From: Phycisphaerae bacterium
GTDB taxonomy: Bacteria > Planctomycetota > Phycisphaerae > Sedimentisphaerales > Anaerobacaceae
Reading direction: 5' to 3'
NCBI GenBank assembly: GCA_028714855.1
Contig: JAQTLP010000001.1
Span: 62,001 to 126,000, forward strand
DNA: 64,000 bases
Shown: in pieces, positions 19,545 through 33,502 of the stretch
How the letters are laid out: each line of letters starts with the position of its first letter
How positions within the stretch are numbered: position 1 is the first letter of the stretch
Position numbers and translations under genes: made by a program
The notes under the pieces: model-generated
The model's database searches: none
Told to the model about the DNA's origin: nothing
Seen by the model: only the letters and a program-made list of their open reading frames with translations

Positions 19545-21044
19545 TTACATACCTGGCATATTCATTCCCTGTTCCATCTTGTCACCCCCGTGTTGATGGC
19601 CCATTGGCGCAGCACCGCCCTGCGGGTTCATCATACTCGGCTTTGCCTGTATCTGCAGAGCCGAATCTATCTTGAAATTGCCGTTTGTCACTATCATTTC
19701 TCCCTCCGCCAATCCTTCTTTAACCAGATAATAGTCGCCCGCTCTGGACCCCAACACAATCTCCCTGCTCTCAAAAGTCGGCTTTTCTTTGTCGGCCAGC
19801 CGAACGTAAACAACCGCCCGTGTCCCCGTTATCAACGGTGCCGATGCTGGTATCACAAGCGGCGCCTCATTTGGTTCTGCCGCAGTAACATAACCCAGCG
19901 ACTCTGTCGTTACCAAATCCATTCCACAGATGTCGCACTTGCCTGGCCTTGTCTTGACAATCGAAGGATGCATCGGACAAATCCACTTGCCCGCCATATC
20001 CTCATCCATAACCCTTCCCGCCCCGGCCACCTTAGACCGCACGACCGCTCGCACAAACATCTCCGGTTTCAATCGCCCATCCGGATTAGCAACATTGACG
20101 CGAAGCTTCACAGTCCTTGTCATAGGATTCAAAACAGGGTCGATAAAGCTGATTGTTCCTTTGAACATCTCGCCAGGGTATGCCTCCGTCGTGAACTCGA
20201 CCTGCTGTCCGTATCGCAGCCACGCCAAATCCAACTCATACGCATCCAGCTTTACCCATACCTCCGACAGGTCCGCTATCGTGTAAATCTTTGTCCCCGT
20301 CTCCACATAATCACCTGCGTTGGCGTGCTTGGCGATTACAATCCCGCCTATCGGTGCGTAAATGGTCAAGTGGTCAACCGGCTTACCCGTTTTTTCTATT
20401 TCCTCTATTTGTTCCTTCTGCAGCCCCAGCAGTCTGAGTTTTTCTCTCGCCGCTTCAAGTGTCGCAATGCCCGAGCGTCGCATTAGATCTGTTGCACCGC
20501 CCCCTGATTCCTGAGCCGCTTTGGCTGCCTGCAAAAGCTCGGCCTGGGCACTTAGCAGTTGCGGACTGTAAAAGTAGACCATATGGTCGCCCTTGCGCAC
20601 CAATGTCCCTGTGAAGTCCACGTACAGCCGGTCGATTCTTCCCGGCACCCACGCTGTGATTTCCTTGACCCGGCTTTCGTCGTATTCCACCTTACCTGCC
20701 ATTCGCACTTCGGCTTCAACGAGTTTCCGCTCCACAGGCGTCGTCTGAACCTCCATCAGCTTCAGGGCGTCTTCAGAAAATACTATCTGTCTGGCTCCAA
20801 CATCTTCTCCACTTGAAGCAACAGGTATCAAATCCATAAAGCAGATAGGACACTTGCCGGGTTTCGGCTGGTGAATCTGCGGATGCATCGCACAAGTCCA
20901 CCATTGCTGCTGTTGTGCACCTATACCACCCGCAGCCGGTTCTGCTTTCCCGCTCTGTCTTGACCCGTAGATTGCATATCCCGCTAAAAAGACCGCAATT
21001 AAAAGTAAAAACAACCATCTTGATTTTTTGCTTAATAGGACCAT
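19545..21044 (-). CDS. cusB: CusB-type periplasmic adaptor with two metal-binding domains
   Basis: A 499-residue membrane-fusion protein. After a TM anchor (FLLLIAVFLAGYAIYG) there is a first heavy-metal-binding domain (WTCAMHPQIH...GKCPICFMDLIPV, about residues 48-75), then barrel-sandwich and coiled-coil hairpin regions, then a second heavy-metal-binding domain (WICPMHPSIV...GKCDICGMDLV, about residues 352-378), and a Met/His-rich end (MGHQHGGDKMEQGMNMPGM). One such domain is common in CusB; two is unusual. Its ATG overlaps the TolC-family stop by one base (TGATG), so the two are translationally coupled. Confidence 0.92.
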   Translation of the reverse strand: MVLLSKKSRWLFLLLIAVFLAGYAIYGSRQSGKAEPAAGGIGAQQQQWWTCAMHPQIHQPKPGKCPICFMDLIPVASSGEDVGARQIVFSEDALKLMEVQTTPVERKLVEAEVRMAGKVEYDESRVKEITAWVPGRIDRLYVDFTGTLVRKGDHMVYFYSPQLLSAQAELLQAAKAAQESGGGATDLMRRSGIATLEAAREKLRLLGLQKEQIEEIEKTGKPVDHLTIYAPIGGIVIAKHANAGDYVETGTKIYTIADLSEVWVKLDAYELDLAWLRYGQQVEFTTEAYPGEMFKGTISFIDPVLNPMTRTVKLRVNVANPDGRLKPEMFVRAVVRSKVAGAGRVMDEDMAGKWICPMHPSIVKTRPGKCDICGMDLVTTESLGYVTAAEPNEAPLVIPASAPLITGTRAVVYVRLADKEKPTFESREIVLGSRAGDYYLVKEGLAEGEMIVTNGNFKIDSALQIQAKPSMMNPQGGAAPMGHQHGGDKMEQGMNMPGM

Positions 21045-22318
21045 CAGTTTGTCCTTTCCGATTCAAGTTCCGCACCTGCTAACATCTCAAGCCCTGCCAG
21101 TTTCTGCCGATTATCAGCCAAAGCTCGCTGATAGGAGAGATAATAATCCAGCAGTAACCGCTGCGAATCTAACAAGCTCAGAAAATCAATTGTCCCTGCC
21201 TTGTACGCCGTCTCCGACGCCTGTAGCAATTCCTCTCCCTTAGGTATCAGCGTGTCCTTATAAAGGTGAATCTTTCTGATACTGTCGTTGTAATCGTAGT
21301 AGCTCTGAGCCGCCTTGGCCAGCAGGGTATTCTCTGTGTCAATTTTTTGATGCTCAATGCTCGCCGCCATTGCCTGTGCCTGCCGCTGGCCTGCGCTGTA
21401 GCTGTCCCGCCACAAAGGCAGGTTCATCTGAAACACAAGTGCCACGGCGTCTCGGCCGCTGTTTCCGCCGCTCTTATCGAATTGTGTCCATTCGACTCCG
21501 ATACCAATGTCCGGATAAAAATTCTTCTTCGCAAGCTCGATTCTGCTCTTTGCGGCCATCGCCTCAAAATTCAAGCCCGCAAGCTCCGGATTTTTCTGAA
21601 TAAGCAAAGTCACTAATCGCCCATAGTCCAGCGGCACCGCCTTGAACTCCTCCTGTTTAGGCCACGGCAGATTTGTATCTGTCGGCAAAGTTAACGCAGA
21701 CCTCAGTTTGCTCACAACCGGCTCTCGCAGCTGCTCCAGACTGCTCAAAACGTACTCCATTCTTGCCAGTTCCACCTGTGCCCGTATCATATCCGGCTGT
21801 CCCGCCTCCGCAGTCGTATATTTTGTCCTTGCCACTTCCTCAAAATACCTCAGCAGTTCAAGGTTCTCCTTTGCTATCTCTGTTGCTTTGGCCAGATAAA
21901 CGTACTCGTAAAATCCCTCCTTAACTTCCTTGAATAAAGTAAGCTGGGCTCCCCTGTACTTTTGCTGCGCCGCCTCGGCGCTCTTGGCTGCCACTTCCGT
22001 CCTGGCGTCTATCTTGCCGAACCACGGAAACATCTGCATCACGCCTACCATCTGGTTCATCTGCATCTCCGATTGTCGGGCATAATAGCCGTATTGCAGT
22101 TGCGGGTCGGGAAGCGCCTTTGTCTGCGGGATTTGCTCTAAAGCCGCCCTCCATTCTTCAAACATGGCTTTTAAATTAGCGTTATTAAGCGATGCATATT
22201 GCAGATAATCTTCAAGTCTGACTAAATTGCTCGCGTCACTTGGCGGCTGTGAACCCCGAACGCTCGGCGTAAACATAAATATGATAACACCAACAACCAT
22301 GACAGCTTGTTGTTTCAT
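21044..22318 (-). CDS. cusC: TolC-family outer-membrane efflux protein (CusC type)
   Basis: A 424-residue outer-membrane channel of the TolC fold: signal peptide ending near FTPSVRGS, then the two repeated helical-hairpin halves (ALPDPQLQYGYYARQSEM and the ELAKKNFYPDIGIGVEWTQF strand region). It is the exit duct of the Cus system and the first gene of the operon. AAGGGGAT stands upstream of the ATG. The 76-base gap to the next gene upstream (22395) contains an imperfect TGATA/TGTCA dyad at 22339-22352 that may be a regulator site, but I see no adjacent metal regulator. Confidence 0.88.
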   Translation of the reverse strand: MKQQAVMVVGVIIFMFTPSVRGSQPPSDASNLVRLEDYLQYASLNNANLKAMFEEWRAALEQIPQTKALPDPQLQYGYYARQSEMQMNQMVGVMQMFPWFGKIDARTEVAAKSAEAAQQKYRGAQLTLFKEVKEGFYEYVYLAKATEIAKENLELLRYFEEVARTKYTTAEAGQPDMIRAQVELARMEYVLSSLEQLREPVVSKLRSALTLPTDTNLPWPKQEEFKAVPLDYGRLVTLLIQKNPELAGLNFEAMAAKSRIELAKKNFYPDIGIGVEWTQFDKSGGNSGRDAVALVFQMNLPLWRDSYSAGQRQAQAMAASIEHQKIDTENTLLAKAAQSYYDYNDSIRKIHLYKDTLIPKGEELLQASETAYKAGTIDFLSLLDSQRLLLDYYLSYQRALADNRQKLAGLEMLAGAELESERTN

Positions 22319-24178: not shown

Positions 24179-25891
24179 TCATTTCAGAACATTCTTCAGC
24201 GCATCCGCTACCTCTTCGACAGCAAAGCTCAGGCCGCTGTATTTCAAAATCTTGTCCTTGATGTCGATTCCAGTGTGCAATTTTATCAGCTTTGCAAATT
24301 GTCCTGTCGCATTGCCCTCGACGACGACAACTCTCTTGGCTTTGGATAGATACTCTGCCGTCTGCGGATGCAAAGGATACACCTGACTGTAGTGCAGCAC
24401 CGAAGTATCTTCTCTGCCAAGAGCCGCGACCGCTTCTCTGACAATATTGCAGGTTGAGCCCCAGCAAACGACCAGGTTATCGTATTCACGGTTGGGATAG
24501 AGTTCCGGCCCGACTATTTCGGCTCTAATTGATTCGAGCTTGCGCAGCCGTTTGTCGACCATTTTAGTCCTAAGCTGCAAATCTTCGGTGATGTGTCCCT
24601 CGGCATCGTGCTCATCGCTGTCCGCGCACACAAGGCCCTGCCCGAAACAGGGAACACCTCTCGGCGAGATGCCATTTTCGGTCAGTTCGTATCTTTTGTA
24701 ATCGGCGGCGGTTTCGGTAATGTATTTTTCGACCTTGACGCTCGATAGATCAAAGCCGCCGGTGTTATAATAAGAATCCATGAAGTACTGGTCGGTCATA
24801 ACAAAAACGGGCGCCTGATACTTATCGGCAAGGTTAAAGGCGCGCGCGGTAAGATAAAAGGCCTGCTCAATCGTCCCAGGCGCAAACAGGATTCTCGGGA
24901 ATTCACCGTGTCCGGAATACAGTGCAAACTCCAGGTCGGCCTGCTCCGTCCGCGTCGGCAGGCCTGTAGCAGGCCCGGGTCTTTGCCCGAGATGAATAAC
25001 CACAGGAGATTCGAGCATACCCGCAAGGCTCAATCCTTCGACCATCAGTGCAAATCCGCCTCCGGATGTTGTAACCATCGCCCTTGCGCCGGCATACCAG
25101 GCGCCAATCGCCATATTTATCGCTGCGATTTCATCTTCTGCCTGCTCGACGATTATGCCGAAGTCGCCGCCGTTCTTTGCAAGGAAGGTAAGCACAGACG
25201 TCGATGGTGACATCGGATACGACGAAACAAAATTACAACCTCCCGCTATCGCCCCGAGACCTACAGCACTGCCCCCGGCAAGAAGTACATGGTTTTTAAC
25301 GGCTGCGTCCGGCTTGAGATTAAAATTTATTTTCGCCCGGCCGGCCAAATCTCCGGAAAGCCGGAAACCGGCTTCGGCTGCACGAACATTACTTTGCACA
25401 ATGTCAGCTGGCTTAGAAGAGAAGAATTGTTTCACATAGTCGCAGACATTGCTCATCTCCATCCCAAGCAAACCTGCCAGCGTCCCTGCCGCAACAACAT
25501 TGGAGTAAACTTTGTTGCCGATATCGGTTGCGATTTTGGTAAACGGCGCTTCGACGAACCTGAAACGCCCGCTCGCAGCCTCATCCCCGATGACTTCGGT
25601 TTCCGCAAGGACTATCGTTTCCTGAGAGATTCTTTCCCCAAGATGCTGGACAGCCCCCTTGTTTAAGGGGATGAGCAGGTCTATACGGTTGACAAAAGCC
25701 GATACCGGCCCGGAGCTGACGCGTATTTGGGTTGAGTTGTTGCCCCCTCGGACTCGTGACATATATTCCTTGGTTGCGAAGACATTGTAGCCGGCCAGTT
25801 TCAGCATTCGCGTCAGAATGCTTTCGACGGTTTGTATGCCCATACCCGCCTGGCCGCACAAAACTATCGAAACATCGTCTGCCCTTGCCAT
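24179..25891 (-). CDS. korA: 2-oxoacid:ferredoxin oxidoreductase, fused gamma-alpha subunit
   Basis: 570 residues with an N-terminal gamma domain ([19 protein letters not shown], about 1-185) and the alpha subunit (from [19 protein letters not shown], with SSYPMSPST and [13 protein letters not shown]). This fusion is the common KorA layout. The enzyme would supply low-potential ferredoxin. It follows the Ni-SOD gene by 25 bases, and a 2-oxoacid oxidoreductase is oxygen-sensitive, so its place behind oxygen-defence genes makes sense. Confidence 0.92.
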
Positions 25892-25916: not shown

Positions 25917-26432
25917 TTAATGACTGTGTTCCTGCCCGCTTATTGGCGAGGTCTCGCCGGAGACTGATTTGCCCAGATATATGCTGCGGAAATCCGCCAG
26001 AAGCGAGCGGAGCTTTTTGACATTGGCCAAATCTGTTGTCTGCTTGGACTTCATCGAGTAAATAATCATCTCGTGCAGCAGCGTAAGCTGCTTGATATAT
26101 TTTTCGTAACCTGCAGCATCGCTTTTTTCGGCCGGCTTTATCCGCTGAGCCATAAAGTAGTAGCTGGCAATATGTGCGATATCCCCGGCGTGCTCATCCT
26201 TGACGTTTACCCACCGGACAATCTGGTTCATATTAGGCTTTTGCTGCGCCGACAGCTCCTCTATCGACTTCATTGCCTTTTCAATCGTAGTGATATTTTC
26301 CGCTATCGCGGCAAGTCTCGCCGAGTCATCATAGATACCGCAGGGTATCTGGCAATGCGAATATACAAATGGCGCTGCCACTGCGAGCAGCAAAATGCTA
26401 ACCATCAGCTTTCGCCTTATATCTGTTCTCAT
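25917..26432 (-). CDS. sodN: Nickel superoxide dismutase with Sec-type signal peptide
   Basis: After a hydrophobic leader (VSILLLAVAAPFVYS) comes HCQIPCGIY at residues 26-34, the nickel hook of Ni-SOD. In the mature family His1, Cys2 and Cys6 bind Ni, and Pro5 and Tyr9 are conserved; here they correspond to H26, C27, C31, P30 and Y34. The remaining four-helix-bundle-length region is also consistent, with a basic/His-rich end (SGQEHSH). Signal-peptidase cleavage after VYS would expose His26 as the new N-terminus. Known Ni-SODs are usually matured by SodX, and I see no sodX. It would disproportionate superoxide outside the cytoplasm. SD AAAGAGG precedes the ATG. Confidence 0.88.
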   Translation of the reverse strand: MRTDIRRKLMVSILLLAVAAPFVYSHCQIPCGIYDDSARLAAIAENITTIEKAMKSIEELSAQQKPNMNQIVRWVNVKDEHAGDIAHIASYYFMAQRIKPAEKSDAAGYEKYIKQLTLLHEMIIYSMKSKQTTDLANVKKLRSLLADFRSIYLGKSVSGETSPISGQEHSH

Positions 26433-26458: not shown

Positions 26459-26941
26459 TTAATATTCTTCGAGGTGGTAAAACTCGGCGTTTTCCAGCCA
26501 CGTTTGCGGTCTCGATACAAAATCGATTATGTTCTCAAGAAGGAAATAATGCTTTTTCTCTTGCTCGGCCAATTTCAGAAAAATTTCTTTATGGGCCTCC
26601 TCCACCTCGTCAGCTTTCTCGAGATAAAAGTCCTGGCTTTGTTCCTCTATCTTTAGGGCTTTCCTGTAAAGCTCGACCTGGCTGATATTGAAATTGAAGC
26701 TCCGGGCAGATTCGCGCATTTGTTCGAAAACATCTTTGGCGTTCGACAAAACCCTTGTCTCTGCCAAACCAGGCGAGATATCTTTTTTCATATCTGAAAC
26801 AATTTTGTAATGCTTCGCCTCTTCATCAGCTAACATATTAAATACCGTCTCAAGGCCCTTATTGTTTGACCCGGCTGCCAGCTGCCTATAGTAATCCTCG
26901 CTGTATTTTTCTTTCTCCATAGCGAAATCAAAAATGTTCAT
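26459..26941 (-). CDS. Ferritin-like diiron protein (rubrerythrin family, no rubredoxin domain)
   Basis: A 160-residue four-helix protein with two Glu-rich iron motifs: EEAKHYKI (an ExxH helix, about residue 40) and a second pair in EEQSQDFYLEKADE and AEQEKKHYFLLE. It lacks the C-terminal rubredoxin-like domain of full rubrerythrin. Likely a peroxide-reducing or iron-binding protein of the cytoplasm. It lies 26 bases upstream of Ni-SOD and 27 downstream of zwf, so it is in the same transcript. Confidence 0.75.
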   Translation of the reverse strand: MNIFDFAMEKEKYSEDYYRQLAAGSNNKGLETVFNMLADEEAKHYKIVSDMKKDISPGLAETRVLSNAKDVFEQMRESARSFNFNISQVELYRKALKIEEQSQDFYLEKADEVEEAHKEIFLKLAEQEKKHYFLLENIIDFVSRPQTWLENAEFYHLEEY

Positions 26942-26968: not shown

Positions 26969-28519
26969 TTAAATTTCTGCCAGCTTTCTCCACTTTCGGC
27001 CGTCAGATTCGATAAGCTTATCGGCCTGAGGAAAGCTTTCGGCACCGGCGGGATATTCGTAGGGCGCCGAATCGTCATTTTGCCGGGCCTGCAATATCGG
27101 CATCAATAATCGCCACGCCTCCTCCACGCTGTCATACCTGTTAAAAAGGGTTTGGTCGCCGACCATACAATCAAGAAGTAATCTCTGGTAGGCCTCGGGC
27201 ATATCGATGAGAAAAATGCTTTTATAATCAAAATTCATATTGAGCGTGCTCATACAAATCTTTGAGCCGGGCCGTTTTGCCTGAAACTGGAGAGAAATTC
27301 CTTCCTCCGGTTGTATCCGCAGGACGAGAACATTCGGAGGCATGTCATCCATGCCCGCGGAAACAAACATCGAATGCGGCACCTTTTTGAAAGTGACGGA
27401 AATCTCCGTATTCTTATGAGCAAGTCTTTTGCCGGTTCGCAGGTAAAAAGGGACACCGTTCCACCGCAGGTTATCAACAAACAATTTCGCGGCAACGAAA
27501 GTTTCAGTTTTTGATTGCGGGTCTATGCCGAGTTCAGTCCGATAGCCGGCTACCTGCGCGCCATTTATCAGCCCCGGGCCATACTGACCCCTGATAATCG
27601 AGCTATCCAGCCCCTCGGGATTAAAGGGGCGAATCGAACGTAAAAGCTTGACCTTTTCATCACGGACGCAGTCCGCCTCGAATGAAATCGGCGGCTCCAT
27701 CGCAACCAAAGCGAGCATTTGAAGCATATGGTTTTGAAATATATCCCGAAGCGTACCGGCTTTATCATAATAGCTGCCGCGATGCTCGACACCCATCGAC
27801 TCGGCTATCGAAATCTGAACGTGGTCAATATAATTGCAGTTCCACACAGGCTCAAAAATAGTATTTGCAAAGCGAAACATCAAAATGTTCTGAACAGTTT
27901 CTTTGCCGAGATAATGGTCGATGCGGTATATCTGTGACTCGTCGAAACATCGCCGGATTTTATCGTTCAGCTCGGCCGAGCTTTGCAAATCTCTGCCGAA
28001 CGGCTTTTCAACGACTAATCTGGCCCGCTGTTCGCAATCAGGCTGATGGCGGCAGGATAAATTCGACAGGCCCAAATGCTCTACTATGGGGCTGTATAGA
28101 ATCGGCGGGACGGCAAGGTAAAAGATATGACAGCAGTCGATTTTGTGCTTTTTGTTCAGGCTGATAAGTCTGGCTTTGATGTTTTCATAAAACGCAGAGT
28201 CTTCGTAATCGCCATCCACATAGTAGAGCTTTTCTGTAAAAGCATTAATATCCTTCGCTGCTGCATCAGTGCGGGTTTCCCGTATCGCCTGCTGCGCGGT
28301 CTTTCGGAAATCTTCATCTGTAAGCTTTTTCCGGCCGCAGCCTAAAAGGTAAAACTTTTCATCGAGCAAATCCTGTGCGAAAAGCTGAAAGATGCTTACA
28401 AGCAGTTTTCTGCGGGACAAATCCCCGGAAGCGCCGAATACGACCATAGCGCTCGGCGGGGCAGGCGTCTCGGCGCAAATAATATCCTGCCGGTCTAATG
28501 ACGGCTGAATCTTTTTCAT
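26969..28519 (-). CDS. zwf: Glucose-6-phosphate 1-dehydrogenase
   Basis: 516 residues. The N-terminal nucleotide site is VVFGASGDLSRRKLL, and the substrate motif IYRIDHYLGKE appears near residue 196, with the usual C-terminal MPEAYQRLLLDCMVGDQTLF. It oxidises glucose-6-phosphate and makes NADPH. In the middle of a run of peroxide- and oxygen-detoxifying genes, its product can feed reductases such as the adjacent flavin reductase-rubredoxin. That role is inferred from context. ATG start; the ribosome site is modest (AAGAGG, 9 bases upstream). Confidence 0.96.
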   Translation of the reverse strand: MKKIQPSLDRQDIICAETPAPPSAMVVFGASGDLSRRKLLVSIFQLFAQDLLDEKFYLLGCGRKKLTDEDFRKTAQQAIRETRTDAAAKDINAFTEKLYYVDGDYEDSAFYENIKARLISLNKKHKIDCCHIFYLAVPPILYSPIVEHLGLSNLSCRHQPDCEQRARLVVEKPFGRDLQSSAELNDKIRRCFDESQIYRIDHYLGKETVQNILMFRFANTIFEPVWNCNYIDHVQISIAESMGVEHRGSYYDKAGTLRDIFQNHMLQMLALVAMEPPISFEADCVRDEKVKLLRSIRPFNPEGLDSSIIRGQYGPGLINGAQVAGYRTELGIDPQSKTETFVAAKLFVDNLRWNGVPFYLRTGKRLAHKNTEISVTFKKVPHSMFVSAGMDDMPPNVLVLRIQPEEGISLQFQAKRPGSKICMSTLNMNFDYKSIFLIDMPEAYQRLLLDCMVGDQTLFNRYDSVEEAWRLLMPILQARQNDDSAPYEYPAGAESFPQADKLIESDGRKWRKLAEI

Positions 28520-28602: not shown

Positions 28603-29313
28603 TTAACCTTCAACGGGTTCAAACTGATCTTTACCGGCGCCGCATTCCGGACAAACCCAGTCGCCCGGCAAAGCTTCGAAAGCAGTACCGGCCGCCACAC
28701 CGTTGTCCGGGTCGCCTGCGGCAGGGTCATATATATATCCGCACACAAGACATTTGTATTTCTTCATATTTTTGCCTCCTTCTTGCAGCTTTACCTTAGG
28801 TTTTACTTCAACGTATGTCGCAGCCGTTTTGGGCGTTCTGCCGTGTTTTATATCGCGGTAATAATTATATGTCATAGGCTCCGCGTTTTCATCTATCGTT
28901 TCGCAGGCCGTAATTTTTGCGATAAATAACGTATGTGTTACAACGTCGATGCTTTCGGTAACCTCGGCTTCGAGAAAAGCTGCGGTGTTATCCAAAATTG
29001 TCGGCACGCCCGTCAGGCCTGCCTTGTAATTCACACCTTTGAATTTGTCTATGTCCCTGCCGGACCTGAATCCGAAGCCGCCGATAAAAGGCATCGGTGC
29101 TTTCTGGGAAAGAATAGAAACTGTAAACACCCTGCTTTCGGTAATATACTCGTGGGTTAAACACTGCCTGTTTATGCTGGCAGCGATCATCGGCGGCTCA
29201 GGCGTAAGTTGAAAAACGGTATTCACAATACAGCCGTTGAATCTGTCTCCTTTCTTAGAGCTGACTATGCACATGCCATAATTTAGCTTGAAAAGCGACT
29301 CTAAATCCAACAC
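28603..29313 (-). CDS. hrb: Flavin reductase-rubredoxin fusion (high-molecular-weight rubredoxin)
   Basis: An FMN-binding flavin-reductase domain (about residues 1-160, with [14 protein letters not shown] and [10 protein letters not shown]) is joined to a rubredoxin with CLVCGY and CPECG cysteine pairs. This Hrb architecture is known as an electron donor to flavodiiron protein FprA in NO/O2 reduction, and fprA lies in the same gene run. I take GTG at 29313 as the start because AAGGAG is six bases upstream, giving VLDLESLF. An upstream TTG at 29346 has no ribosome site. Confidence 0.9.
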
Positions 29314-29370
29314 TTGCTTCTCCTTAGGTTGCTTAACTGCTCGCAATCAGGTTGAACAAAACTTCTTTGC

Positions 29371-29862
29371 TTAATTCAAAAGAGCAAGCTGCTCATTCAA
29401 AATAGCAATGTGACCGAGCTCTTCTTTTATTATGGCCTCGACCCTGTCCCTTCCTGCCCTGGGCGGGACCAATTCCTTTAAGCCGGAATAAAAGACAACC
29501 GAATTACGCTCAGCCTCCAGAGCTATCTTAAGTATGTCTTCTATCTTTTCATTGCCGGTAAGATTTCCCGTTGGACTCCTCTTGCCTTCCCATCCATGTC
29601 CTCTGGCCATCGTTTGCAGGTACATTGCAGCTTCATTATCGGGGTCAAAAACCGTTTCTTCTTTCTCTCCGGCGCCGAGTTCTTTCCTCATTTCCTGAAA
29701 AGTCGCCAGATGCCGGTCTTCCATGTTGGCCAAGTCAAGAAACATCTGTTTTGTTTTCTTATCGGCAGCGCCTTTTGCCGCCTGATGGTAAAACCTGGCG
29801 GCATCTCTTTCGAGGTTTTCCGCCATTTCGAAAATTTCATCGGCATTAAAAGTAATACTCAT
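29371..29862 (-). CDS. Rubrerythrin-like diiron protein
   Basis: A 163-residue ferritin-like protein. Iron-site helices are NLERDAARFYHQAA, NMEDRHLATFQ, LEAERNSVVFYSGL and KEELGHIAILNEQ, i.e. four helices each with E or ExxH. There is no rubredoxin domain, so electrons must come from a partner such as Hrb. Its ATG overlaps the ferritin stop (ATGA), showing translational coupling. It is distinct from the other ferritin-like gene at 26459 and from the rubrerythrin at 32608. Confidence 0.8.
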   Translation of the reverse strand: MSITFNADEIFEMAENLERDAARFYHQAAKGAADKKTKQMFLDLANMEDRHLATFQEMRKELGAGEKEETVFDPDNEAAMYLQTMARGHGWEGKRSPTGNLTGNEKIEDILKIALEAERNSVVFYSGLKELVPPRAGRDRVEAIIKEELGHIAILNEQLALLN

Positions 29863-30380
29863 GCTTTTTCTCCTGTCGTTGCTGGTGGTGTAAAGACCCG
29901 CAGCCCTAATTCGCGGTCGAGCATAAACATCCCGCCGGGCGCGTCTTTCATCATTTTAGTCTGCTGAATTATTTTATCAGCCGACGACTCTTCTTCGACC
30001 TGTTCATTGACAAACCACTGCAGGAAAGTGTGGGTTGCGTGGTCTTTTTCCTTAATGGCAAGACTCGCGAGGGCGTTAATCAGCCCGGTAACTTTTTGCT
30101 CGTGCTTGTATGTGGCTTCGAAAACAGCCAATGGTGATTTCCATTCGGTCTGAGGGGCCGCTATGGCCTTCAATATAATCCTGCCGCCGCGGGCATCTAC
30201 GAAATCGTACATCTTCATCGCGTGCATCAGCTCTTCCTGCACCTGTACTCTCATCCAGTTTGCGAACCCGCTTAAATCCAGCGACCTGAAATATGACTCC
30301 ATCGACAAATACAAGTATGCCGAATACATCTCTGCGTTAATCTGCTCGTTTAGAGCTTTTTCTATACTCTTGCTTATCAT
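29859..30380 (-). CDS. ftn: Bacterial non-heme ferritin
   Basis: About 173 residues from the ATG at 30380 (MISKSIEKALNEQINAEMYS), chosen for GGAGG 11 bases upstream. The ferroxidase-centre residues are in ALNEQINAEMYSAYLY, QEELMHAMKMY and NEQVEEESSADKI, the standard FtnA arrangement. It oxidises Fe(II) and stores Fe(III), lowering Fenton chemistry. It starts just after the desulfoferrodoxin stop (five-base gap) and overlaps the next ferritin-like gene. Confidence 0.92.
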   Translation of the reverse strand: MISKSIEKALNEQINAEMYSAYLYLSMESYFRSLDLSGFANWMRVQVQEELMHAMKMYDFVDARGGRIILKAIAAPQTEWKSPLAVFEATYKHEQKVTGLINALASLAIKEKDHATHTFLQWFVNEQVEEESSADKIIQQTKMMKDAPGGMFMLDRELGLRVFTPPATTGEKA

Positions 30381-30385
30381 TTTCG

Positions 30386-30760
30386 CTACGACCTCCACAA
30401 TCCGTGAACATTGCAATGCTCTCTTGCGCTTACAGAATCGGCCTCAATATTAAACACGGCCTCAGGCGCCGTCCCGGGTTCCAGGAATTGTCTGTATGCC
30501 TTTCCGTCCGCAAGCAGCTCAATCCACTCGATATAATGTTTCTCCTCCATTGGGTGGGGGACGCTTCCGACTTTTACCTTGTAGCCGCCGCTGATTTTTT
30601 CAATTACCGGCACATGTTTTTCCTTGCCCTGGTCGGCGGTCTTTGCAGTAAGGTTCTCCATCGGCTGGCCGCAGCAAACCAGTTCGCCGGCGCCGCCGTG
30701 AAGCACCTCGACGATATTACCGCAGATGTTACATTTGTAAATTTCAAGTTTCTTTGCCAT
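30386..30760 (-). CDS. dfx: Desulfoferrodoxin (superoxide reductase)
   Basis: A 124-residue two-domain superoxide reductase. The desulforedoxin centre has C10, C13, C29 and C30; the active mononuclear iron has E47, H49, H69, H75, C116 and H119 ([22 protein letters not shown]). These residues match the canonical family numbering. It reduces superoxide to H2O2 without making O2, typical of anaerobes, with rubredoxin-type proteins as electron donors. Peroxide would pass to the neighbouring rubrerythrin or Tpx. Confidence 0.96.
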
Positions 30761-30787: not shown

Positions 30788-31966
30788 CTAAACGATTCCG
30801 AGCTCTTTGTGTTTTGTTAATATTTCATCCGCAAGCTTTTCAAGTGCTGTAAAATCACTGTCTTTAGGATAACCTTTCGCTATCACCGGCTCAAGGATTT
30901 CTACTTTGAGGTTTGAAATTAATCCTGCGATTTGCTCAACCATTTTGCCGCCCCATCCGAAAGAACCGATAACCGAAGCAAATTTTGTCTTGGATCTGAG
31001 AGCATTCGCTAAAATCGCAGCGTATGCGACTTTCGGGTGCGCTGCTGTCAGGACGGTTGGAGAGCCGAGCACGATTGTAGCGGCATCGACGAGCGATATT
31101 GCCAGTTTGCCGATATCAGCTTCAGTAAGATTGAATTGCTTTACTGTAATGCCTCTTTCTATCAGGGCGTCAACAAAATGCTCAACCATTTTTCTTGTGC
31201 TGCCATGCATTGATATATACGGCAGAACCACTTCGTTTTTGACGTTATCGCTTACCCAGTCTTTATAAGCATCGATGATAAACTGCGGCTTGTCATAGAT
31301 GGGGCCGTGACTCGAAGCTATTATCTCTATCTGGAGGCCCTTTATTTTTTCAAGGTTATTTCTTATAATAGTCCTGAAAGGCATCATTATCTCGGCGTAA
31401 TATCGCTTGGCGGCCTCGTACACAAGCCGCTCATCCTCGACGAACAAGCTGCTGGTCGCCAGATGTGAGCCGAAGAAATCGCACGGGAAAAATATCCTGT
31501 CTTCCTTAAGGTAAGTTCCCATCGTCTCCGGCCAGTGTACCCACGGAATATAAATAAATTGCAGGGTCTTGTCGCCCAGCGAAAGAGTTTGGCCGTCATC
31601 GACCGTAATAAATTTATCCTCGCTGATTTGCAGCAAATCGACAAGCTCTCCCTTGCACTTTGGGTTTGTTACCACCTTCGCTTCGGGATAAAGCATCAAT
31701 ACCTCAGGTATGCCGCCGGAATGGTCCTGCTCTCCGTGGTGGGCGACGACATAATCTATTTTGCCGGCCCCGGCTTTGACGAGATTTTCTATAAGCACGT
31801 CAGTCTTCGTCGGGTCAACCGTATCTAAAAGAGCTGTTTTTTCACTGCCCTTTATCAAATATGCGTTATAACTTGTCCCGTCCGGCAATGGGATAAGCTC
31901 GTCAAACAGCCGCCTGTCCCAGTCAATCGCCCCGACCGAATAAATGTTTGGCCTTAGCTGCATCAT
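30788..31966 (-). CDS. fprA: Flavodiiron protein FprA (O2/NO reductase)
   Basis: 392 residues: a metallo-beta-lactamase-like diiron domain with HxExD at residues 77-81 (HHGEQDHSG) and further histidines, then a flavodoxin domain (VLPYISMHGSTRKMVEHF, SPTVLTAAHP). It reduces O2 to water and/or NO to N2O using electrons from a rubredoxin (Hrb, same cluster). The start ATGATG overlaps the Tpx stop, so 31966 or 31963 is used, with translational coupling to tpx. Confidence 0.95.
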   Translation of the reverse strand: MMQLRPNIYSVGAIDWDRRLFDELIPLPDGTSYNAYLIKGSEKTALLDTVDPTKTDVLIENLVKAGAGKIDYVVAHHGEQDHSGGIPEVLMLYPEAKVVTNPKCKGELVDLLQISEDKFITVDDGQTLSLGDKTLQFIYIPWVHWPETMGTYLKEDRIFFPCDFFGSHLATSSLFVEDERLVYEAAKRYYAEIMMPFRTIIRNNLEKIKGLQIEIIASSHGPIYDKPQFIIDAYKDWVSDNVKNEVVLPYISMHGSTRKMVEHFVDALIERGITVKQFNLTEADIGKLAISLVDAATIVLGSPTVLTAAHPKVAYAAILANALRSKTKFASVIGSFGWGGKMVEQIAGLISNLKVEILEPVIAKGYPKDSDFTALEKLADEILTKHKELGIV

Positions 31967-32577
31967 TTTTCCAATAACTTTACCGCTTCCAGTACCGCTT
32001 CGTAGTTCGGCTCGCTTGCTACTTCATTGACTATCTGTATGTACTTAATGGTGCCGTTTTTGTCCACTACAAATATCGCCCTGGCAAGCAGACGCAGCTC
32101 CTTTATCAATACGCCGTACGCATCGCCGAATGACGCTTCGCGATAATCCGAGAGCGTTTGAACATTCTGCACGCCTGCTGCGCCGCACCATCGTTTCTGG
32201 GCAAACGGCAAATCCATACTAATAGTCAGCACCGCGACATCGCTGCCGAGTTTACCTGCTTCTTCGTTGAACCTTCGGGTCTCAACGTCGCAAACAGATG
32301 TATCGAGTGACGGCACCGAACAAATGATACATACCTTGCCGTGATACGACGAAAACTTTACCGCTGACATATCATTGGCAACGACCTCGAAATCCGGCGC
32401 TGAGTCACCGACCTTAAGTTCATTACCCAGCAGGGTCAGCGGCTTGCCCTTCATCGTTACTGTCCGTTTTTGTCCTTCCATAGAATTCTCCTTGCAGCCG
32501 ATAAGCAGCATTGCGACTGCGATAGCACATAAATAGCGCACGGCAACCGATAATCCCGCATTAATTCGAATTGGCAT
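31963..32577 (-). CDS. tpx: Thiol peroxidase (Tpx), possibly made as a lipoprotein
   Basis: Catalytic part PSLDTSVCDVETRRFNEEA holds the peroxidatic Cys, and the resolving Cys is in KRWCGAAGV; fold and spacing match atypical 2-Cys Tpx. The full 204-residue frame starts with a lipoprotein signal (AIAVAMLLIGCKENS, lipobox LIGC). An in-frame ATG at 32481 (MEGQKRTVTMKGKPL) aligns with the normal Tpx start and is preceded by a strong AAGGAG with six bases' spacing, whereas the upstream ATG at 32577 has only a weak site. The gene can thus make a cytosolic form, an envelope form, or both. It follows rubrerythrin by 30 bases. Confidence 0.85.
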   Translation of the reverse strand: MPIRINAGLSVAVRYLCAIAVAMLLIGCKENSMEGQKRTVTMKGKPLTLLGNELKVGDSAPDFEVVANDMSAVKFSSYHGKVCIICSVPSLDTSVCDVETRRFNEEAGKLGSDVAVLTISMDLPFAQKRWCGAAGVQNVQTLSDYREASFGDAYGVLIKELRLLARAIFVVDKNGTIKYIQIVNEVASEPNYEAVLEAVKLLEK

Positions 32578-32607: not shown

Positions 32608-33180
32608 TTAATAATTAACCGCTTCCAGCTCAGAATACGCCTTCGGATGCGCACAAGCAGGACAAACATCCGGCGGCTCTTTTCCTTCGTGAACATAACC
32701 GCAGTTTCTGCAAACCCACCTTACTGGCTTTTCTCGTTTAAATACGCGTCCCTCGGTTATGTTCTTGGCAAGTGCAACATACCTGCCCTCGTGACGCTTT
32801 TCCGCAATCGCGATGTTCCTGAAAACTTCTGCGATTTCGCCAAAACCCTCTTCGTCCGCCGTCTTGGCGAAGTCCGGATACATTTGGGTATTTTCGTAAT
32901 GCTCGCCTGCCGCCGCCGCCTTTAAATTCTCAAGCGTGCTGCCGATGACTCCTGCCGGAAACGCTGCGGTAATTTCTACTTCGCCGCCTTTTAGAAACTT
33001 GAACTCCCGCTTGGCGTGCTCCTTTTCCTGGTTGGCTGTCTCTTCGAAAATAGCCGCAATCTGCTCGTAGCCCTCTTTCTTGGCCTGGCTTGCAAAATAC
33101 GCATAGCGGTTTCTCGCCTGAGACTCGCCCGAAAAAGCGGTCAATAGATTTTTCTCAGTCTGACTTCCTTTAAGCTCCAT
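32608..33180 (-). CDS. rbr: Rubrerythrin
   Basis: About 190 residues from the ATG at 33180 ([20 protein letters not shown]), chosen because GAGG is seven bases upstream. Diiron helices ([33 protein letters not shown] and [11 protein letters not shown]) are followed by a rubredoxin-like domain with CRNCGY and CPAC. It reduces H2O2 in anaerobes with electrons from rubredoxin or NADH systems. It is the first gene after the promoter at 33364-33392 and leads the defence run. Confidence 0.96.
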
Positions 33181-33502
33181 TACAACCCTCGCTTTCTTCA
33201 AATTCTAACAGACACGATTAATTCACAATTAACCCCATCGTTTGATATTGTCAAACGACTTACGATAAAAGTCAATAGTTCTTTTGCACTTTGCAGAGAT
33301 TCCCGCCGGCTCTTCTCTCGCCGGCGAGGGCTTTCAGCCATTTCTGCCCCTGCTATATAAGATATTAAATAGTAACTACTCCTATTTGTCAAGGGCTGTT
33401 TCATTTTCGGCGGGATTTTCCCCTCTGCCGATAAATGACTGATTATTTTTGATTTCTTGTTTTTTCTTCTAAAATAGTAAATAATAAATCGAGAATAACG
33501 TT
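33181..33502. other. Promoter-bearing interval between rbr and tRNA-Arg
   Basis: No gene. It holds the rubrerythrin promoter with its dyad (33364-33392), a GC-rich leader, and AT-rich DNA before the tRNA. I cannot point to a clear tRNA promoter. Confidence 0.6.
33364..33392 (-). promoter_or_regulatory. Promoter of the oxidative-stress gene run, with dyad
   Basis: Minus strand: TTGACA (33387-33392), 17 bases, TTTAAT (33364-33369). A dyad spans 33368-33386, with AATAG/CTATT and AGTA/TACT half-arms between the promoter elements. It shares the word ACAAATAGGA(C/G)TA with the Rrf2-operon promoter at 13.1 kb. Control by an Rrf2- or PerR-like repressor is inferred. Confidence 0.65.

Follow-up and report, generated by a model that had tools for sequence, protein, structure and literature searches.

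Most descriptions of nickel superoxide dismutase (Ni-SOD) present it as cytosolic and dependent on SodX. The closest well-described enzymes are of this SodX-dependent kind, namely SodN of Streptomyces (1q0d/1t6u) and the Ni-SODs of marine cyanobacteria. The protein considered here, encoded in a 64,000-nucleotide stretch of DNA from a Phycisphaerae bacterium (the window), shares with them the Sod_Ni domain, the four-helix bundle, the nickel hook HCxxPCGxY and equivalents of Tyr9 and Tyr62. It differs from them in that Gln replaces Asp3, the N-terminal extension is a hydrophobic leader and not a short propeptide, and there is no sodX.

There is precedent for a signal peptide on a Ni-SOD. Such proteins are already in print and known to specialists (PMC12537917); in that study the signal peptide and following His of a Ni-SOD from the planctomycete Roseiconus lacunae (WP_230780104.1) served as search bait, the planctomycete Ni-SOD leader being taken as given and the processing and location of the enzyme lying outside the study. 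Our protein has the same Sod_Ni domain, the same order of signal peptide and hook His and a planctomycete host, and we know of no difference of kind between the two. Because signal-peptide Ni-SODs have already been published (PMC12537917), we regard the window protein as a well-supported variant and not as a new kind. LPMO, CopC and DUF4198 proteins are exported metalloproteins in which signal-peptide cleavage makes a chelating His1 amine (PMC12537917), although their folds and metals are unrelated to those of Ni-SOD and they have no Cys ligands. The ubiquitin-NiSOD fusions of algae (PMC6332867) are likewise SodX-free and carry an N-terminal extension ahead of Ni-SOD, but the extension is ubiquitin and not a signal peptide, and the fusions are eukaryotic. 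In the freely accessible literature, our search for papers on periplasmic Ni-SOD returned PMC12537917 only, and we found none there that describes the leader class defined below, the missing sodX or how widely the class occurs.

The sodN gene and its leader

The window gene, sodN (Table 1), starts with ATG and has AAAGAGG (including GAGG) upstream. Its product matches the Pfam profile Sod_Ni (PF09055) over residues 24-153 at 99.1 bits (E 3.6e-28; cut-off 25) and scores 43 bits, below the curated cut-off of 90, against TIGR02753, the equivalog profile for SodX-dependent SodN. It is 29% identical to the solved Ni-SOD 1q0d in alignment, and phmmer pairs His26 with residue 1 of that structure. The hook HCQIPCGIY fits the HCxxPCGxY pattern, and H26, C27, P30, C31 and G32 are invariant among the aligned homologues. 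An AlphaFold2 model (42 homologues; mean pLDDT 89.0) runs from a helix at residues 3-23 through a hook-bearing loop into four helices. When this model was used as a query, Ni-SODs took all of ranks 1-11 in Foldseek, with a probability of 1.00 and a TM score of about 0.8 relative to target length, and ranks 1-7 in VIA (Z 14.3, with an rmsd of 2.3 across 109 residues). We give the rank order, with Ni-SOD first in both searches, more weight than the Z value, since values of this size are not rare among helical bundles.

Table 1. The antioxidant gene run of the window in order of transcription, with the parts of the sodN product (positions are those of the window)
Feature	Position	Strand	Basis or remark
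Rubrerythrin, first in run	32608..33201	(-)	PF02915, 118 bits
Thiol peroxidase Tpx, lipobox-like N-terminus LLIGC	31963..32577	(-)	NF001808, 214 bits, above cut-off
FprA-type flavodiiron protein	30788..31966	(-)	PF19583 + PF00258
dfx, desulfoferrodoxin (superoxide reductase), leaderless	30386..30760	(-)	TIGR00320, 215.8 bits, above cut-off
Ferritin, true start probably within listed ORF	29859..30416	(-)	PF00210, 149.8 bits
Rubrerythrin-like ferritin-like protein	29371..29862	(-)	PF02915
Flavin reductase-rubredoxin fusion	28603..29346	(-)	PF01613 + PF00301
zwf, glucose-6-phosphate dehydrogenase	26969..28519	(-)	TIGR00871, 620 bits
Rubrerythrin/ferritin-like protein, directly upstream of sodN	26459..26941	(-)	PF02915
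sodN, leader-type Ni superoxide dismutase precursor	25917..26432	(-)	171 aa, Sod_Ni
Predicted Sec signal peptide, residues 1-25	26358..26432	(-)	Hydrophobicity, -3/-1 residues, model helix 3-23
Nickel hook HCQIPCGIY, residues 26-34	26331..26357	(-)	Mature protein predicted to start at His26
KorA-like 2-oxoacid:ferredoxin oxidoreductase alpha, 25 bp downstream of sodN	24179..25891	(-)	ORF; homologue in L044 is POR_N/POR

The earlier note had placed HCQIPCGIY right behind a Sec-type leader ending in VYS, and this description holds. The leader, MRTDIRRKLMVSILLLAVAAPFVYS, has four basic residues among its first eight and a hydrophobic core with a maximum 10-residue Kyte-Doolittle mean of 3.10; VYS directly precedes His26, giving V at -3 and S at -1. 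The basic n-region, hydrophobic core and small -3/-1 residues of a Sec/signal peptidase I substrate are all present in it, the signal-peptide call being that of our own scripted rule (-3/-1 residues plus a Kyte-Doolittle core) and not that of SignalP.

Two classes of Ni-SOD

Profile searches found Ni-SOD in 17 of 61 nearer relatives and in 55 of the 392 genomes of the phylum, and the proteins divide into two classes. Those of the SodX class (n = 14) start with HCDGPCG (HCDIPCG in one case) behind a propeptide of 9-20 residues, whose hydrophobicity averages 0.45 and reaches at most 1.58. Those of the leader class (n = 55 in the phylum) start with HC[QE][IV]PCG behind a hydrophobic leader, which scores at least 2.18 in every case; the -3/-1 rule is satisfied at the His in 48 of the 55. 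When 66 genomes were searched with TIGR02754, sodX was found adjoining 13 of the 14 SodX-class genes, the 14th being at a contig end, so that the score is 13 of 13 where adjacency is testable, and no sodX was found beside leader-class genes. Three genomes (G225, G247 and G159) are natural controls: each has one gene of each class, and sodX adjoins the short-propeptide gene only. In a maximum-likelihood tree built from the mature parts only, the classes lie on opposite sides of one branch with support of 100/99.

The earlier note had also proposed looking for sodX in the window genome. A whole-genome profile search with TIGR02754 found none, the best match (E 0.018) falling on the signal peptidase ORF; we consider this absence strong, not absolute, because the genome is 98% complete. 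A search of the same genome for the Fe/Mn-SOD and Cu/Zn-SOD families gave no match.

The leader class reaches well beyond the phylum. A hook-pattern scan of GTDB species genomes yielded at least 575 confirmed relatives with a leader-class hook, and the best 80 of these come, going by record titles, from about 20 phyla (Planctomycetota, Omnitrophota, Bacteroidota, Thermodesulfobacteriota, Zixiibacteriota, Verrucomicrobiota, Nitrospirota, Gemmatimonadota and others). Among these best 80, the -3/-1 rule is satisfied at the His in 75 and a hydrophobic leader is present in 78. Cultured species that carry a leader-type gene include Desulfacinum infernum and Marinifilum caeruleilacunae. After pooling of the leader-class proteins and merging of duplicates (129 proteins, about 20 phyla), the rule held at the His in 117 of 129 (91%), compared with 623 of 3062 (20%) for the remaining positions between -10 and +14; since the sequences are related, 117/129 measures conservation and not independent events. 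The site at His26 is not there by chance. Leaders whose removal would lay bare the metal-binding His are typical of a large and deep branch of Ni-SODs and not a peculiarity of the window genome.

Because 12 of the 129 proteins break the rule, signal peptidase I may not in every case be what directly generates the N-terminus. Six of the twelve form one sub-clade with a linker: L058, L061, L065, L067, L068 and their sister L062 have a leader and then 10-20 residues before the hook. Two proteins from Chitinophagales, L134 and L142, resemble this sub-clade, the chosen start of L142 being doubtful. In the linker-bearing proteins (the six plus L134 and L142) the residue before the His is F, R, W, L or V, that is, bulky or charged. 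Judging by sequence, cleavage by signal peptidase I would not suffice to expose His1 in proteins of this type; either another protease would have to act on them or their Ni site would have to do without the free amine of His1. The neighbourhoods of the linker-type genes contained no candidate for such a protease. A different departure is seen in another leader-type Ni-SOD (L071:45-1466, minus strand), which has a long C-terminal extension and a mature part of 452 residues.

Proposed maturation of the precursor

We favor the scenario that sodN encodes a Ni-SOD that is synthesized with a Sec leader, matured by signal peptidase I and located in the periplasm, and we hold it to be highly probable. 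The Sec leader would take the unfolded chain through the inner membrane, and housekeeping signal peptidase I would cut exactly between Ser25 and His26, generating the free amine of His1 that the Ni site requires. His1, Cys2 and Cys6 would then bind nickel in the periplasm, outside the cytosol, and the enzyme would remove superoxide there, cytosolic superoxide being left to desulfoferrodoxin and its partners from the same operon.

The signal peptidase I reading of the earlier note is supported in each of its computable parts, and the comparison across homologues carries more weight here than the single sequence. The hydrophobic core, the site at the hook, the absence of sodX and the single S26 signal peptidase of the genome all argue for it. 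One correction is that the VxS/AxA residues by themselves point to no particular peptidase. We had considered the -3/-1 residues alone as a mark of signal peptidase I and dropped this, since all 14 SodX-type propeptides also end in AxA; the taste is one shared by S26-type peptidases, and the residues before the His therefore do not reveal which peptidase cuts. A hydrophobic core, together with a missing sodX, sets the leader class apart from the SodX class; the -3/-1 residues do not.

With regard to catalysis, residue numbers follow the Streptomyces Ni-SOD structure. On this numbering the gate tyrosines Tyr9 and Tyr62 have as counterparts Tyr34 and Tyr92 of the sodN product, both kept in the alignment. 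The Asp3 position is Gln or Glu in the leader class (Gln in the window protein), the Arg47 position corresponds to His81, which is invariant in the leader class, and the Glu17 position is not conserved in that class. SOD activity thus seems likely from the residues present yet not assured, because Asp3 is replaced and the Glu17 and Arg47 positions are not kept.

Export through Tat deserves the first hearing among the alternatives. In this scenario the folded, nickel-loaded enzyme would pass through TatABC and be cleaved afterwards; the window leader does contain Arg-Arg (IRRKLM; RRxLM) and tatC is encoded in the window genome. However, an RRx-hydrophobic-hydrophobic motif occurs in just 3 of 80 homologues (the best 80 of the at least 575) and in few relatives, so the twin arginine is not a conserved feature, and it is for this reason that we favor Sec over Tat. 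Furthermore, the h-regions are strongly hydrophobic, which is more Sec-like, and an N-terminal extension on His1 would bar formation of the canonical site before cleavage. We consider Tat export very unlikely.

The likeness of the cut bond, given that SodX-type propeptides end in AxA too, would also suit an enzyme that stays in the cytosol and loses its propeptide to a SodX-like protease of an unrecognised type. This seems highly improbable given that: (i) TIGR02754 found nothing above noise in the genome; (ii) the sole S26 peptidase found there is the housekeeping one (PF10502; G000:C17; 540-aa frame) and (iii) leader hydrophobicity is 2.2-3.9 in nearly all leader-class proteins (those of the phylum plus the best 80 of the at least 575), whereas no SodX-class propeptide exceeds 1.6. 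Similarly improbable is an uncleaved signal anchor, which would give a tethered protein with His26 not freed and no active Ni-SOD; some homologues do lack a site at the His, but 91% keep it and the hook is invariant, and an anchor would leave both facts unexplained. The cysteine close behind the h-region might suggest a lipoprotein lipidated at Cys27, but the His at -1 is invariant and clashes with the lipobox [LVI][ASTVI][GAS]C, and the chance of this is practically nil.

Extending the Sec and signal peptidase I scenario to the family leads to a broader proposition, on which we are evenly divided. Ni-SODs may form two deep halves split by compartment, the larger of which (mostly diderm, often anaerobic lineages) would be extracytoplasmic and SodX-free, with a metal ligand made by ordinary signal peptidase I and nickel loaded outside the cytosol; within it, the linker sub-clade (L058, L061, L062, L065, L067 and L068) would either be trimmed a second time or bind nickel at a site that does not use the free amine of His1. 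Cyanobacteria without SodX have been suspected of having no working Ni-SOD (PMC8346466). If the leader-type clade is what we propose: (i) a missing sodX would be no sign of an inactive Ni-SOD; (ii) presence/absence surveys would be lumping two enzymes of different compartments; (iii) nickel could enter a dithiolate site in the periplasm and (iv) anaerobes would split the labour, with an oxygen-releasing dismutase outside and a reductase yielding no oxygen inside.

The antioxidant gene run

sodN is the tenth gene in a minus-strand run of about twelve, mostly antioxidant genes, all co-directional, with gaps of at most 83 bp and several overlaps; downstream of sodN a KorB-like gene comes after the KorA-like one. 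The pairing of sodN with a cytosolic dfx in one gene run, as claimed in the earlier note, was borne out, in that the leaderless dfx lies about 4 kb upstream on the same strand and the genes between are co-directional. Such an arrangement would be consistent with a division of labour by compartment, an exported dismutase versus a cytosolic reductase. The genes are found together again in related genera (L075/L087, L086, L088, L048 and L050), where rubrerythrin and tpx flank sodN, and two Aminicenantes contigs and one Poribacteria contig likewise carry desulfoferrodoxin immediately upstream of sodN. A comparison of sodN neighbours across phyla revealed no common partner, although a few lineages share rubrerythrin, Tpx and desulfoferrodoxin.

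A lipobox like that of the window Tpx is seen in relatives G002, G007, G013 and G003 (L164, L166, L167 and L174), and other relatives have Tpx without a leader. To our knowledge, a lipid-anchored Tpx would be unusual. We considered the possibility that a lipoprotein-like Tpx is the outside peroxide-removing partner of Ni-SOD and set it aside, as relatives with a leader-type Ni-SOD beside tpx have a leaderless Tpx. Elsewhere in the window, a gene at 19545-21044 encodes a CusB-like efflux adaptor in which the heavy-metal-binding motif CxMHP occurs twice, as CAMHPQIHQPKPGKCPICFMDL and as CPMHPSIVKTRPGKCDICGMDL; the next gene, at 21044-22318, is TolC-like.
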